Shown in pieces: positions 3,899-8,655 of a DNA stretch of 8,655 nt. Positions within the stretch are counted from its first letter, which is position 1; every line of letters begins with the position of its first letter. The translations under genes were made by a program, and so were the position numbers. The stretch comes from Thermoproteota archaeon (GTDB lineage: Archaea; Korarchaeota; JAOZGF01; JAOZFZ01): the NCBI GenBank assembly GCA_027492035.1, contig JAOZFT010000023.1, positions 1 through 8,655 on the forward strand, written 5' to 3'. The notes below the pieces were generated by a model. The model saw nothing but the letters and a program-made list of their open reading frames with translations, searched no databases and was not told the origin of the DNA.

Positions 3899-4291
3899 AT
3901 GCAAAACCAGTTTTTCCAGTTAATAAAAAATAACACTTTATTCTGGCCCTGGTTCATAGTTATGGTTACTGCTTCAGCTTTCACCATAGGTTACTACTTT
4001 TACTTAAAAATTGAAAAAGAGTTTAATGAAAAATACGGAGCCAGAAAACTGCCAAAAAGAATAGCTAACGGAATAGCCTACCTCATCTTTCTTTTACTTT
4101 TCAGAGAAGCAGTGTACCTACAGTTCAAACCCAACCCTGATACATGGATAATTATAGAAACTGTCCTGGTTCTAACCGTAGGCGTCGGGTTCTTTATTTT
4201 CCTAGAAATAACTATTTCAACCGTTAACTTCCTCAATTCATTAAAAAATAAATTGTCAAAAAAGCTTCAACCAAGAAAAGAGACTCCTTAA
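3899..4291 (+). CDS. Small three-helix membrane protein, unknown function
   Basis: This 130-residue protein has three hydrophobic segments, at about 15-36, 55-74 and 83-108. A charged loop (KIEKEFNEKYGARKLPKR, about 37-54) lies between the first two, and the C-terminal tail is strongly basic (KNKLSKKLQPRK). The start ATG at 3899 is preceded by a purine-rich GAGGAAAGGG ribosome site with an 8-nt spacer. Only 27 bp separate it from the MscS-like gene, on the same strand and with no visible promoter, so the two are probably co-transcribed. It may be an accessory or regulatory subunit of that channel, which is inference from context. I recognise no family signature. The following 110 bp contain no terminator hairpin that I can support. 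Confidence 0.7.
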   Translation: MQNQFFQLIKNNTLFWPWFIVMVTASAFTIGYYFYLKIEKEFNEKYGARKLPKRIANGIAYLIFLLLFREAVYLQFKPNPDTWIIIETVLVLTVGVGFFIFLEITISTVNFLNSLKNKLSKKLQPRKETP

Positions 4292-4404: not shown

Positions 4405-4759
4405 ATGAAATATGATGCTTTGGTTGCTGTTGAGAGGCTTAAACACTTAAGGAAACGTAATAGTAAAAGGTAAGAAGCCCAAGAAAGCCAACAGGAAAAT
4501 CACTGCACCCATTTTCTAAATTTAAGATGGCAATTCAATCTATAGCATGGCAGAATGGAATCGATGTCGTTGAAGTTCTTGTTACCAAAACATTGCAGAA
4601 ATGTCCGAGATGTAGCTATACTTCCAAGCCAAATTAGGTGCCTTCAACAACAAAAGGAAACTGTTTAAGTGTAGAAAGTGTGGTTATAAGGCAAATCCGG
4701 ATAGGGCAGCATCCCGTAATATTGCTACTCTGGCTCCTTTTCATTGGGGGGCCAAATAG
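4405..4759 (+). pseudogene. tnpB: Decayed TnpB (IS200/IS605-type) C-terminal fragment
   Basis: Three adjoining frames together spell the end of a TnpB. Frame one (4405-4470) gives YDALVAVERLKHLRKRNSKR, the strand and helix after the second RuvC acidic residue; it stops at TAA 4471. Frame two (about 4470-4634) gives LHPFSKFKMAIQSIAWQNGI, then DVVEV and the first zinc-ribbon knuckle CPRCSYTSK; it stops at TAG 4635. Frame three (about 4634-4759) gives the second knuckle CRKCGY and NPDRAASRNIA, with the last RuvC Asp in NPDRAA. At least two frameshifts break the gene. The N-terminal helix-turn-helix and first RuvC motif are missing, since a stop lies just before 4405. No TnpA is present. The fragment cannot encode an active RNA-guided nuclease. 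It marks past transposition next to vapBC. A TGGCTCC/GGGGCCA pairing at its 3' end could be part of an old right-end or omega-RNA structure. Confidence 0.85.
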
Positions 4760-4828
4760 AATGATATACCCTTAGAATAATGGTTAATTGTTTTTCTTTG
4801 CCTAGCAGACTTACAGGTTTTTCATGTT

Positions 4829-4854
4829 CCTCAACAGTTGGAAAACTGTTAAGG
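4829..4854. repeat. Strong imperfect hairpin 3' of the TnpB relic
   Basis: CCTCAACAGTT (4829-4839) and AACTGTTAAGG (4844-4854) form an 11-bp stem with one mismatch around a GGAA loop. It lies 70 bp after the TnpB stop, where IS200/IS605 elements carry a subterminal right-end hairpin. It could equally be a transcription or RNA-processing signal. The arm core CCTCAACAGT also occurs at 999-1008 without a partner arm. Confidence 0.4.
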
Positions 4855-4936
4855 ATGACTTTCATCTCTCTAAACTTTTTATTGTCCATATATTTTTTTC
4901 TTTAACTCACTGTAGTAAGAATGTGCTTTATCTAAC

Positions 4937-4960
4937 ACACATGTGTATAACATTTAAATA
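4937..4960 (+). promoter_or_regulatory. vapBC promoter with operator-like palindrome
   Basis: TTTAAATA at 4953-4960 is a good archaeal TATA box about 35-42 bp before the vapB ATG. Directly upstream, where the BRE would lie, is a perfect 10-bp palindrome ACACATGTGT (4937-4946). VapB ribbon-helix-helix proteins typically bind such palindromes to repress their own operon, so this is a plausible operator. The placement is seen directly; the role is inferred. Confidence 0.45.
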
Positions 4961-4994
4961 TTACAATTTGATATTAATTATTGGTGTGATTGAT

Positions 4995-5213
4995 ATGTCG
5001 ACTATAAGTGTGAGAATTCCGAAGGAATTGAAGGAGGAGATGAAGAAAGTAAATGTAGACTGGCCAGGTTTCATTCGCTCAATGGTTGAGCAGAAAATAA
5101 GACAGGTGAAGAGGGAGAGCGCCTCGAAAAGAATAGATGAAATTCGAAGTAAAACTGTTAAAGGGGTTTTTGAGGCAGCAGAATCCATACGTGAGGATCG
5201 TGACAAAGTATGA
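4995..5213 (+). CDS. vapB: VapB-type antitoxin (ribbon-helix-helix)
   Basis: This 72-residue antitoxin is the partner of the VapC encoded at 5210. The N-terminus STISVRIPKELKEEMKKVNVDW is a ribbon-helix-helix DNA-binding fold: beta strand TISVRIP, helix KELKEEMKK, turn, then helix PGFIRSMVEQKIRQV. The C-terminal part (about 45-72, ending ESIREDRDKV) would wrap around VapC and block its active site. I chose the ATG at 4995 because it follows GGTG and GTGAT (4983-4990) and fits the usual length. The frame is open back to 4824, but that extension reads as random hydrophobic residues and runs through the promoter. The stop overlaps the vapC start (ATGA), giving translational coupling. Likely autoregulated by the VapBC complex through the upstream palindrome. 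Confidence 0.9.
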   Translation: MSTISVRIPKELKEEMKKVNVDWPGFIRSMVEQKIRQVKRESASKRIDEIRSKTVKGVFEAAESIREDRDKV

Positions 5214-5641
5214 AAGTTGTTGCAGATGCAAGTGTTGTAGCTAAGTGGTTTAATGTTGAGGAGTACACTGAGGAATCTCTTATCCTGAAAGAAGACTTTG
5301 TCAGTGGCGTCATAAATATAGCAGCACCTCTCCACTTGGTCTATGAAGTTGGAAACAGTATCTGGAGGAATAAACAGTTAAATTTAAGGGATGCAATGGA
5401 TGCTGTGGCTTCCCTCATTGAGCTTGATCTAGAGCTTACAGCTCCAACGGCTAAGTCTATGTCGAGAACCATGGAAGTAGCGAGGGAAACTGGCCTCACC
5501 TTCTACGACGCATTATATATCCAGTTAGCAGAGGAGAAAGGAGTTACTTTGGTAACAGCGGACAGGAAACAGTTAGAAAAAGCTGAAAAATTGGTCACAG
5601 CAATCCATGTTAGAGAATATCCGGAGACTCGACGGTTCTGA
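5210..5641 (+). CDS. vapC: VapC-type PIN-domain ribonuclease toxin
   Basis: This 143-residue PIN-domain protein is the toxin of a type II system. All four acidic metal-binding positions are visible: Asp6 (VADAS), Glu46 (YEVGN), Asp100 (TFYDALY) and Asp118 (TADRK). The order and spacing are typical, and the length is normal for archaeal VapC. It would bind Mg2+ or Mn2+ and cut specific RNAs, often tRNA or rRNA, when free of VapB. The target here is unknown. Its ATG overlaps the vapB stop by 4 bases (ATGA), so the two are co-translated. The gene looks intact and functional, unlike its neighbours on both sides (TnpB relic and the decayed frames at 5710-6085). This is consistent with a self-maintaining pair in a decaying accessory segment. 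Confidence 0.93.
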   Translation: MKVVADASVVAKWFNVEEYTEESLILKEDFVSGVINIAAPLHLVYEVGNSIWRNKQLNLRDAMDAVASLIELDLELTAPTAKSMSRTMEVARETGLTFYDALYIQLAEEKGVTLVTADRKQLEKAEKLVTAIHVREYPETRRF

Positions 5642-6085: not shown

Positions 6086-6132
6086 TATCAGGCTTGAGGT
6101 AATTTAAGTTGCGACTCCACTATAACTTTCTC

Positions 6133-7359
6133 TCATTTTTTACTCTGGGCAAGTTCCTTTATTGTTTCGTAAGTTTCAAATTCAGGAGCTAAGGCGTCGT
6201 ATTTATAGTATTTCCCAAAAGCAAGCTGGGTTGCGTCCCTTCCCATAAAACCACCATGGAGAGGGTAAGCAAATATTATGCCATTCTTACTAAAGAACTC
6301 ATCAAAATCCCTTAAGACATCTTTTTGTTCTTTTTTATTCAAGGTTTGGCTGAATACTCCAAGGGGAGTGTCTTTTGTAAATGCCCAGTCAATAAAAACA
6401 ACGATAGAAATACTATTACCATATATCTCCTTAGTTGTTCTTATTTCTTTCTGCCATTTATCTTTGTTTAGTTCCTTGTTCTCTATCTCTTTTACTGAAG
6501 GCGACATAGTTACAAAATCAAGCTTAGGATAAAAATCTTTTGGAATGCCAAGCTCATACCAACCTGTATAGGACCAAGAGCCAACATATATCTCTTTTCC
6601 TTTTGATCTGCTGTATTTATGGATTTCATCAACAATGCGTGAAGCTGCTTCAAAGCTTGCTTTTACGCCAGGGTGATTGACTGGATCCTTACCCCCTTTT
6701 TTAGCTAAACGAGCTAAAATACCTGCTTGAACATACAGTCCATCAATCCAAATAGCATCTATTCCAGAATCTATTTGTTTTTTGGCAAAACTCAAAAACA
6801 ACTGCTGGTAATCCGGATTTGTAATGTCCGGAAGAACATACTTGTTGCTTCCTGTCTTTTCCCAATATTTTTCGTGCAGCTCCTCTTTTGTCATATTAAA
6901 TCCAAATCTTTGTGGGTCTAAAGCCATCTCCCAAGTTTTTTCTTCAGGAATTATCTCCCCTGTCACCGGATTATGTTCAACTTTGTTAATTTCCTGAGCA
7001 GCAAGCGCACCACCAACAAGAACATTGGGGTTTTTCTTTTTTATCGTCTCTATGCCTTTAGTGAGTATTTCGTAAACATCATATTTTCTTTCGATTTCTG
7101 CCATTCCCATCCACCTGAAAAATCCTCTGTGAAGATAATCTGCTCCTGTTTCTTTAACTAAATCTGCTACACTATTAATGTCTCTAATTTGATCAATTAT
7201 TGACTCGTAAACAATGGCAACCTTAATATTGGAAATTTTGCCTTGGTTAGTGTTTTCTTCTTGGAAATTTAATTGCTTCTGATATCGCCAACCAATTAAC
7301 CCAGATGCCAAAATTAAAACTACGATAATGACTACTAAAGTTTTATTTTTCATCTTCAT
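6133..7359 (-). CDS. Signal-anchored TIM-barrel protein, putative glycoside-hydrolase-like
   Basis: This 408-residue protein has an N-terminal signal anchor (MKMKNK, then a hydrophobic stretch at about 7-24) and no lipobox Cys, so it is tethered outside the membrane. A spacer (about 25-44) leads to a barrel-like domain. IKVAIVYE at 45-52 is the first strand. GADYLHRGFFRWMG, VLVGGALAAQE, and GIDAIWIDGLYVQ at 199-211 follow. Later come KEIYVGSWSYTGWYELG (255-271), DFVTMSP and IVVFIDWAF (319-327), ending with IIFAYPLHGG. Asp201/Asp206 and Asp324 at strand ends are candidate catalytic acids. The pattern fits hypothetical glycosidase-like barrels; the substrate is unknown. The ATG at 7359 follows a strong AGGAGGT (7373-7367) with a 7-nt spacer. 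A TTTTAAAAAA box at 7395-7386 lies upstream, but so close that initiation from it might remove the ribosome site. It is the last gene of the putative cassette array; I see no attC-like site 3' of it. Confidence 0.72.
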   Translation of the reverse strand: MKMKNKTLVVIIVVLILASGLIGWRYQKQLNFQEENTNQGKISNIKVAIVYESIIDQIRDINSVADLVKETGADYLHRGFFRWMGMAEIERKYDVYEILTKGIETIKKKNPNVLVGGALAAQEINKVEHNPVTGEIIPEEKTWEMALDPQRFGFNMTKEELHEKYWEKTGSNKYVLPDITNPDYQQLFLSFAKKQIDSGIDAIWIDGLYVQAGILARLAKKGGKDPVNHPGVKASFEAASRIVDEIHKYSRSKGKEIYVGSWSYTGWYELGIPKDFYPKLDFVTMSPSVKEIENKELNKDKWQKEIRTTKEIYGNSISIVVFIDWAFTKDTPLGVFSQTLNKKEQKDVLRDFDEFFSKNGIIFAYPLHGGFMGRDATQLAFGKYYKYDALAPEFETYETIKELAQSKK

Positions 7360-7408
7360 AATCTATACCTCCTATTTTTAAAGTCTTTTTTAAAAGGCTT
7401 GCAATTTC

Positions 7409-7499
7409 GGACAACGTTTCAGGGGTAGATGGAGTTTGCGGGTGTAAGCGGAGCAACTTTGGGCAAAGGGGTAGCGAGTTACATATCCCTCTGTTAAGC
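7409..7499 (-). other. attC-like recombination site B (putative integron cassette junction)
   Basis: Read on the minus strand, the 91-bp element starts GCTTAAC (7499-7493, a perfect RYYYAAC) and ends GTTGTCC (7415-7409, GTTRRRY with two misfits). Inside, AGAGGGATATG (7492-7482) can pair imperfectly with CATCTACCCCT (7431-7421), 8 of 11 positions. One base lies between the outer box and the stem on the 5' side and five on the 3' side, the same asymmetry as in the site at 8233-8312. The two sites share TAACAG, GGATA, CGCTAC and TTTGCCCAAA in the same order. It lies 71 bp after the stop of the PH-domain gene and 50 bp before the TIM-barrel gene, as a cassette junction should. The weak 3' box may mean it is a degenerate copy. 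Confidence 0.4.
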
Positions 7500-7560
7500 G
7501 ACTCTGATAGGGGTGAGCAATCCGGAGAGTTACGAGAGTGTAAGCAAGCCGCATTAAAAT
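7500..7560 (-). repeat. Extra partial copy of the attC-like 3' arm
   Basis: Just before site B on the minus strand is a stretch with GCTTACAC and CACCCCTA, spaced similarly to GCTTACAC and TACCCCTG inside site B (minus strand, about 7448-7420). It looks like a partial tandem copy of that arm, or the remnant of an older junction. Outer GGCTTGC (7396-7402) and GCAAGCC (7544-7550) also form an inverted pair around the whole region. Confidence 0.3.
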
Positions 7561-7569
7561 ACATTTCAT

Positions 7570-8157
7570 TCATTTTTTAGAGGATTTTTCCAACAGTTTC
7601 CGTATTTTAACCAATTCATCAAGAATTCTTAAATTAATGTTTTCTTCCTCATAAGTTTCTACTGCTATTGGCTTTTTACCTCTAACAAATTCCATTATTA
7701 ACTCCCTTAAACCCTCAAATTGTTCAATTCCTTCTATTTTTATTTCAGCTCTAGCTTGTTGCCCGGAGTAACCTGCAGTTTGAATCTTAAGGGCAGCAAT
7801 CCCGAGTTTCCTTGAAATAGGACCTTGTGCAATATCGATATTTGTTATCCTGTTATAAGGGACAATTCCAGTCTTTTTAAACCACATTCCTCTTCCCCAT
7901 ATAATTTCATCTTTAGTAAGTTTATAGACTATCGAGTCATAGTATTTTGGAATCCAATAAACCACGAAAATCAAAATAGCCAAAATTGGTATTGAAATAC
8001 CAAGTTTTACTTCAAATGGGGTGAAAAGCAATACAGGAAGATACCATGTCAAAATACCAAAAAGAATAACTAACACCAAATAGATGTAATAAAGCTTCTT
8101 AAATTGTGGTGCTGGTTTGAATTCTTCACCTATTTTTATTTTGAGTTTTTCCCTCAT
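7570..8157 (-). CDS. PH-domain (bPH2/YdbS-like) membrane protein
   Basis: From the ATG at 8157 the protein has 195 residues. Two membrane helices near the N-terminus (about 24-46 and 54-71) are followed by a bacterial-type PH domain (about 75-157). Its family signs are a Y-x-LT-x-DEI start (YKLTKDEIIWGRG), then VPYNRITNIDIAQGP, and ISRKLGIAALKIQTAG. A charged, coiled-coil-like tail ends the protein. In other genomes such proteins sit in the cytoplasmic membrane; some are tied to stress or lipid functions, but no reaction is established. A GTG three codons upstream (8166) would also be in frame. I prefer the ATG because GTGAT at 8166-8162 then acts as a ribosome site four bases away, the same arrangement as at vapB. 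The gene lies alone between two attC-like sites on its own strand, the layout of a single-gene integron cassette. Confidence 0.78.
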   Translation of the reverse strand: MREKLKIKIGEEFKPAPQFKKLYYIYLVLVILFGILTWYLPVLLFTPFEVKLGISIPILAILIFVVYWIPKYYDSIVYKLTKDEIIWGRGMWFKKTGIVPYNRITNIDIAQGPISRKLGIAALKIQTAGYSGQQARAEIKIEGIEQFEGLRELIMEFVRGKKPIAVETYEEENINLRILDELVKIRKLLEKSSKK

Positions 8158-8215
8158 TTTTATCACTTCATGATTTTATCCTGAATTTTTAACTAGTTTT
8201 TGGCGGCGAGCAAGC

Positions 8216-8225
8216 ATTTAAATAA
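8216..8225 (-). promoter_or_regulatory. TATA-like box of the PH-domain gene
   Basis: On the minus strand TTATTTAAAT lies 8 bp after the GTTAAGT end of the attC-like site and about 60 bp before the ATG at 8157. Start of transcription about 25 bp downstream would leave a leader of about 35 nt that includes the GTGAT ribosome site. The putative cassette therefore seems to carry its own promoter. Confidence 0.4.
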
Positions 8226-8232
8226 GTATCTC

Positions 8233-8312
8233 ACTTAACGGTTGGCGGATAAAAGAAGGTGCCGAAGACAATTTGGGCAAAGCGTAGCGAAACCTTTTAT
8301 CCGCTGTTATAC
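8233..8312 (-). other. attC-like recombination site A (putative integron cassette junction)
   Basis: On the minus strand the 80-bp element runs from GTATAAC (8312-8306; RYYYAAC with one misfit) to GTTAAGT (8239-8233; a perfect GTTRRRY). Just inside is a perfect 11-bp stem: GCGGATAAAAG (8304-8294 on minus) against CTTTTATCCGC (8255-8245). TAAC and GTTA of the outer boxes pair as well. The spacer is one base (A) on the 5' side and five (CAACC) on the 3' side. The middle (about 38 nt, with CGCTACGC) would be the variable terminal structure. Size, box types and box-spacer-stem order agree with attC sites; the unequal spacers are atypical. It starts 33 bp after the CPBP gene stop, where a cassette's own attC should be. 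Cutting between G and T of GTTAAGT would join cassettes at 8239/8238. Confidence 0.5.
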
Positions 8313-8344
8313 GCTGTCGGCGAAGGGACATTTTTCACACCCCA

Positions 8345-8655
8345 TCAAGAAATTAATAGAGGAAAGATTAGAAAGCCGAATGCATCATTTACCCCATGAA
8401 CCACAATACATGGCCAAATACTCCCCTCTTTGAGATACAATAGGACGAGTGCCGCTGATAAGATACTTACATCTATCGTAGGACCCAAACCGAAAAACTT
8501 TAGATGCACAAAAGTAAACGCCAACCAGGATGTAACGGCACCTAACCATCTTCGTTCTGTTAACGAAGTTAATCTCTCTATGAGATATCCTCTGTAAAAT
8601 ACCTCTTCGAGAAAGGTCCCTGTAAAGAAAAGACTAAAGAGAATGAGAGGATTGT
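8345..8655 (-). CDS. CPBP-family (CAAX/Abi-type) intramembrane metalloprotease, C-terminal part
   Basis: The frame is open from the right edge to a TGA at 8347-8345, giving 102 residues with the N-terminus beyond the window. The CPBP motifs are in the right order: LEEVFYRG (EExxxR, residues 15-22), FTFVH (FxxxH, about 46-50), and HGVND (HxxxD variant of HxxxN, 86-90). Hydrophobic helices lie between them (about 61-74 and 92-101). The Glu and His residues bind zinc within the membrane. Family members process prenylated proteins in eukaryotes and act in peptide-toxin immunity or membrane-protein cleavage in prokaryotes; the substrate here is unknown. CPBP proteins are frequent cargo of integron cassettes, and an attC-like site begins 33 bp after the stop on the same strand. 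The shorter plus-strand ORF across its end (8242-8433) is a shadow. Confidence 0.85.
   Translation of the reverse strand, partial: NPLILFSLFFTGTFLEEVFYRGYLIERLTSLTERRWLGAVTSWLAFTFVHLKFFGLGPTIDVSILSAALVLLYLKEGSIWPCIVVHGVNDAFGFLIFPLLIS

Follow-up and report, generated by a model that had tools for sequence, protein, structure and literature searches.

A probable integrase-less integron cassette array in an archaeal chromosome

Organization of the locus

The window analysed here is the whole of an 8655-base contig (C15) belonging to a 1.87-Mb, 42-contig archaeal genome bin with a completeness of 93% (G000). On its minus strand lie, in this order, a gene for a CPBP/Rce1-like protease, a palindrome that we call site B, a gene for a bPH_2 protein, a second palindrome (site A) and a gene for a GH31-like protein (Table 1). 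Sites A and B are related imperfect palindromes, each placed 3' of one of two consecutive same-strand genes, and on the minus strand they share the same order of parts: an R'' box, a stem, a core with CGCTAC and TTTGCCCAAA, a stem, a spacer and a GTT box. The right spacer, which precedes the GTT box, reads CAACC in site B and GAAAC in site A. The first-pass annotation had reported two palindromes with a common part order just 3' of two consecutive genes of the same orientation; both were present as and where it described them, and the genes are those for the CPBP and bPH_2 proteins.

Table 1. Features of the cassette region of the window.
Feature	Position	Strand	Remarks
Putative attC site B, 82 bp, of the CPBP cassette	8233..8314	-	Near-identical sites in Altarchaeum, Atribacteria, Methanophagales and others
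Site B R'' box GTATAAC	8306-8312	-	
Site B R' box GTTAAGT	8233-8239	-	Predicted cleavage G|TT between 8239 and 8238
Site B inner 11-bp stem		-	GCGGATAAAAG/CTTTTATCCGC
Putative attC site A, 93 bp, of the PH cassette	7409..7501	-	Aligned to sites B and C
Site A R'' box GCTTAAC; R' box GTTGTCC	7493-7499; 7409-7415	-	
Complete PH gene cassette	7415..8238	-	Start TTAAGTGAG (8238), bPH_2 gene, end within site A
bPH_2 cassette gene, membrane protein with bacterial PH domain, 198 aa	7570..8166	-	PF03703 E 1.6e-16
CPBP/Rce1-like membrane protease cassette gene, followed by site B	8345..8653	-	Cut by contig end; PF02517 E 2.6e-17
GH cassette, own attC lost	6104..7414	-	Start TTGTCCGAAATTGC at 7414
GH31-like ORF, next gene on the strand after site A	6133-7359	-	

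The sizes of the two sites, 82 and 93 bp, are within the range of integron attC sites. Their boxes follow the attC consensus, RYYYAAC for R'' and GTTRRRY for R', with A and B each off at one or two positions, and other sites of the family carry the canonical boxes GCCTAAC and GTTAGGC. A cassette in an integron array begins with TTRRRY, directly after the G of the preceding site, and these first bases pair with the R'' box of the attC of the same cassette; the two boxes that adjoin in one arrayed attC site belong to different cassettes. This accounts for the poor match of the outer boxes within A and within B, since the right box of each site belongs to the next cassette. The weak GTT box of site B had been regarded as a departure from the norm; the outer-box match is indeed weak, but this is expected when the right box is that of the next cassette.

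Taken as single palindromes, A and B show no excess over chance. An 11-bp perfect inverted repeat was found in 26% of shuffled windows, and the DNA folding energies compared with shuffles gave z values of -1.3 for B and +1.4 for A. The bottom strand, which is the plus strand of the window, was more stable by 2-3 kcal/mol for A, B and a third site, C, described below, though not clearly better than shuffles. An Rfam scan of the window returned only a chance match. It is the shared architecture of the sites that is beyond chance.

Further copies in the same genome

Copies of the sites were searched for with R1, a covariance model built from sites A, B and C, and with R2, a wider model of the same site family. 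The 666-kb contig C9 carries a decayed paralogue of the GH-like gene of the window; 3' of it is site C, 80% identical to B (E 3.6e-13), and upstream of it is site D, a further divergent copy. Sites A and D look decayed. The two GH cassettes are homologous at the DNA level from precisely ACG|TTGTCC to about 6104, while the preceding sites, A and D, differ. A boundary of the ACG|TT type is the crossover point of integron-type recombination. All three occurrences of GTTGTCCGAAATTGC in the genome are cassette starts: one in each GH cassette, and one where a third array begins.

This third array was found by R1 on the 139-kb contig C21, where three sites lie within 1.3 kb. It consists of HicBA, a site, a 78 aa ORF, a site, an 80 aa ORF, a truncated boundary, a cassette with a degenerate ORF, and a site, and it is flanked by LeuRS and SurE genes on one side and an M20 peptidase gene on the other. 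The starts of its cassettes match their own R'' boxes at 7/7, 7/7 and 6/7 positions. Over the whole genome, R2 found nine sites on contigs C15, C9, C21, C37 and C10, eight of them at E <= 0.001 and the other weak. Further copies beside genes, which the first-pass annotation had proposed to look for, are thus present on C9, C21 and other contigs. As an empty-site comparison, the SurE neighbourhood of a second genome (G001) was of no use, its contig being too short and not syntenic.

These copies also bear on the origin of C15, which is a whole 8.7-kb contig of a metagenome-assembled genome and carries sites with near-identical counterparts in bacteria, as would bacterial DNA mistakenly assigned to the archaeal bin. 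We regard such contamination as highly improbable. On the 666-kb and 139-kb contigs, sites of this family and the identical cassette start recur, and there the sites adjoin genes for LeuRS, SurE and a protein that we read as an archaeal-type DNA polymerase II large subunit (a 1150-aa ORF). Additionally, the GH gene has homologues within the phylum, and 11 such sites are found in a single-contig archaeal genome (G242). The archaeal host suggested at first pass therefore holds, given the site family on these two contigs beside archaeal core genes.

The GH31-like family is present in 8/29 genomes of the phylum. Two longer GH31-like paralogues of about 50% identity are encoded on C2 and C21 of the same genome (L043 and L045), with no attC seen. 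Upstream of site D, an inverted pair of TTAACAAACTTTTTTTAACATACTAAGACTTAACAGAGCC surrounds a decayed ORF (L026, 8250-8900), likely an insertion sequence.

Cassette boundaries, covariation and orientation

We believe that the palindromes are integron attC sites. This reading, which is drawn from sequence comparison, is based on the complementarity of each site to its own cassette, the covariation of the inner stem, the orientation of the sites and a PH cassette shared with another archaeon.

The R'' box of a site fits the start of its own cassette. Among 47 consecutive pairs, complementarity averaged 3.00 of 4 variable positions, compared with 2.06 +/- 0.13 for permuted boxes, and 37 further pairs (84 in all) gave 3.14 of 4 compared with 2.07 +/- 0.15. 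The R'' box compared with the right box of the same site gave 2.1 in the first set and 1.9 in the second, which is chance. Of 83 sites, 41% had an exact start of their own cassette no more than 1.5 kb upstream, compared with 14% when the boxes were shuffled. In the window, the PH cassette has the R'' box GCTTAAC and a start whose complement reads ACTTAAC, and the two agree at 6/7 positions. No repeat, terminator or ordinary palindrome predicts such complementarity. We therefore have a tested statistic that separates true attC sites from look-alike palindromes, and the findings give clear cassette boundaries in archaeal chromosomes.

The inner stem shows changes on both sides in 11/11 pairs. 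Double changes filled 408 cells, compared with 157 after shuffling and 54-113 with the partner slid, although these pair counts are inflated because the alignments (A5 and A7) were fitted to the model structure. The sites are also oriented. By crude gene calls, with 46/131 sites falling inside a called ORF, 72 of the 79 sites that come after a called gene (91%; 72:7) lie 3' of that gene and on its strand, at a median distance of 25 nt from the stop. Tandem arrays were seen at four loci (L070, L105, L118 and L167). The possibility that the repeats would prove unrelated to gene ends, named beforehand as grounds for rejecting the integron reading, did not materialize.

The PH cassette of the window has a counterpart of 78% DNA identity in an Archaeoglobaceae archaeon (bin AUK153; L175, JAGGXN010000193.1). 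The aligned stretch runs from within a B-like attC to within an A-like one, and the cassette start there matches the R'' box at 7/7 positions. The genes beyond the cassette, one of which we read as iorA, differ from those of the window. One cassette is thus common to two distant archaeal groups. Homologues of the bPH_2 gene are present in relatives, with no attC visible beside those of four relatives (L017-L020).

Scattered singleton copies in some chromosomes, such as that of G242, are what might be expected of a dispersed palindromic repeat, MITE- or REP-like, that came to lie at gene ends by chance and is no cassette recombination site. We find this reading hard to credit for three reasons. 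The moving unit is a gene plus its site, with the homology boundaries of the PH and GH cassettes in or at the sites; the R'' box fits the cassette start rather than the right box of the same site; and the order gene-site-gene is strict, with 91% of sites in the same orientation. The cassette order and attC architecture recognized at first pass are thus borne out by the complementarity, the covariation, the orientation of 72/79 sites and the shared cassette.

An array without an integrase

No match to PF00589 or TIGR02249 was found in the 93%-complete genome, that is, no tyrosine recombinase, so the search for one with the integron-specific domain, proposed at first pass, came back empty. In the host phylum, no IntI scored over the cut-off, and relatives have only Xer-like proteins. 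These skip positions of about 176-235 of the IntI model, where we place the IntI-specific insert. A CALIN is defined by at least two attC sites less than 4 kb apart without an intI. Sites A and B are 0.8 kb apart, the C21 array has three sites in 1.3 kb, and no integrase accompanies them. A complete integron has an intI with the IntI-specific insert and an attI, and the genome has no integrase match. The window is therefore a CALIN and not a complete integron because the genome has no tyrosine recombinase; the CALIN was among the options listed at first pass, and it is the one that the attC pair without an integrase supports.

We conclude, with a probability of roughly 0.93, that C15 ends in an integrase-less integron cassette array of an archaeal chromosome. 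We propose that this array consists of a CPBP cassette, attC B, a PH cassette, attC A and a GH cassette without an attC. An IntI would recognise the attC as a folded single strand and cut it at 5'-G|TT, as predicted here, and the bottom strand would be the recombined one. The gene and its attC would then move as a circle and insert elsewhere. The IntI responsible may come from another member of the community or from an integron since lost.

Alternatively, the integron-type cassettes of archaea might be moved by a recombinase other than IntI, for instance a Xer-like one without the IntI-specific insert. Consistent with this, 48/50 carrier genomes have no IntI over the cut-off, and many encode Xer-like proteins that match the IntI model save for positions ~176-235. 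Such proteins are general, as they were matched in 14/14 control genomes, and the genome studied here has sites and zero tyrosine recombinase matches. Furthermore, the IntI-specific domain is present in published archaeal IntIs, and archaeal attCs are substrates of IntI1 (PMC9668308). We therefore consider a non-IntI mover very unlikely and retain IntI as the presumed recombinase.

The two carrier genomes with an IntI over the cut-off are those of a Desulfobacteraceae bacterium and of Ca. Argoarchaeum ethanivorans. R2 found no site on the intI contigs of either, and among the sites found no array lies directly beside an intI. The IntI-like gene of Ca. Argoarchaeum ethanivorans (L239, 3446-4360), which is over the TIGR02249 cut-off, has an apparently disrupted C-terminus and is surrounded by transposases and a serine recombinase.

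Spread across archaea, bacteria and phage

R1 found independent copies in other genomes of the phylum, with E values of 6e-8 and 8e-9. A sequence pattern for the conserved right half of the site (GCCCAAAT ... AACTTC-N12-AACGTT), searched in named genomes, matched at least 120 stretches, compared with about 14 that we estimate by letter count to be expected by chance. Among the matches listed are archaea of the Methanophagales, Methanosarcinales, Methanoperedenaceae, Bathyarchaeota, Aenigmatarchaeota, Altarchaeum, Diapherotrites, Thermoplasmata and Archaeoglobi, two Thermoproteota bins of the host phylum, and bacteria of the Dehalococcoidia, WOR-3, Patescibacteria, Atribacteria, Cloacimonadota and Ignavibacteria. 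In the matched and related loci, R1 found at least 135 sites and R2 at least 85 more, many of them in tandem. The "divergent archaeal form" considered at first pass is rather one attC family common to archaea and bacteria.

With R2, the site type was found in 42/198 archaeal species, 25 of them with a best E <= 1e-6; the E-values of R1 and R2 are rough, so this prevalence is an estimate. Genus g4, the largest of the host phylum, had no sites at the R2 threshold used. The single-contig archaeal genome mentioned above (G242, 1,390,915 bp) has its 11 R2 sites round the chromosome, as one four-site array and seven dispersed singles (L275-L282, G242:C1), and some of these are one-cassette insertions with recognisable starts. 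A phage contig (L208, 1629-3744; IMGVR_UViG_3300028595_000036) carries a terminase gene followed by about nine sites with cassettes under ~125 aa. The first exact pattern gave no match in viral sequences, and neither did site B in a distant blastn comparison with plasmids.

About one in five sampled archaeal species thus carries this attC type, often as single cassettes, and this observation is new. A broader picture can be drawn in which single cassettes are numerous and mostly dispersed in archaea, in about a fifth of species, with an attC family common to bacteria and phages and an archaeal mover that is not a canonical IntI. We think this picture, taken as a whole, unlikely.

Relation to known integrons

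Archaeal integrons and CALINs were described in 2022 from metagenome-assembled genomes that span nine archaeal phyla, Korarchaeia among them (Ghaly et al., 2022; PMC9668308). In that survey, 75/6718 genomes were identified through IntIs and attC clusters by IntegronFinder, with single attCs left out (PMC9668308). An integrase-less archaeal cassette array is therefore an already known kind. Like the published archaeal CALINs, the sites described here are of attC type, go with short same-strand ORFs, mostly lack an IntI and resemble sites across domains (PMC9668308). They differ in that one attC family was followed with a dedicated model, in 42/198 archaeal species and with many dispersed singles. 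The present work adds evidence on the boundaries, an attC family common to the domains, a cassette shared by two lineages, and signs that single cassettes are abundant. Our results suggest that archaea carry cassettes much more often than the published figure of 1% of genomes implies and that these are often singles, which cluster-based searches drop.

Class 1 cassettes (such as aacA4, blaOXA-1 and aadA) resemble those studied here in their R'' and R' boxes, their G|TT boundary and an attC 3' of one gene, and the class 1 attCs of aacA4, OXA-1 and qacG2 have the same right end, AAACGTTRRRY. In contrast to class 1, the sites here come without intI1 or attI1, and they have an AT-richer stem and the loop motif GCCCAAAT. 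Their left spacer is shorter and their right spacer longer, so that right exceeds left. R3, a narrow model built from 13 class 1 attCs and lacking a positive control from beyond that class, gave no match to the sites of the cassette region even with filters off. Comparison with a relaxed attC model, another check proposed at first pass, therefore gave a divided answer with our home-made models: R1 and R2 match many arrays, but the class 1-only R3 gave no match. Phage-borne integron cassettes are also known (PMC9892861), and the IMG/VR contig with its nine or so sites of the family is a similar case. Its cassettes are very short, unlike those of the chromosomal array.

Other features of the window

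The end of a TnpB-like zinc finger (CRKCGYKANPDRAASRNIATL) remains at 4550-4760 of the window, between a TM gene and a VapBC-like pair. In the latter (4824-5641), a ribbon-helix-like ORF overlaps a PIN-domain gene, and the two are probably a VapBC pair. In G001 (L056), an attC site is flanked by a similar VapBC-like pair and by a homologue of the window gene at 3899-4291.
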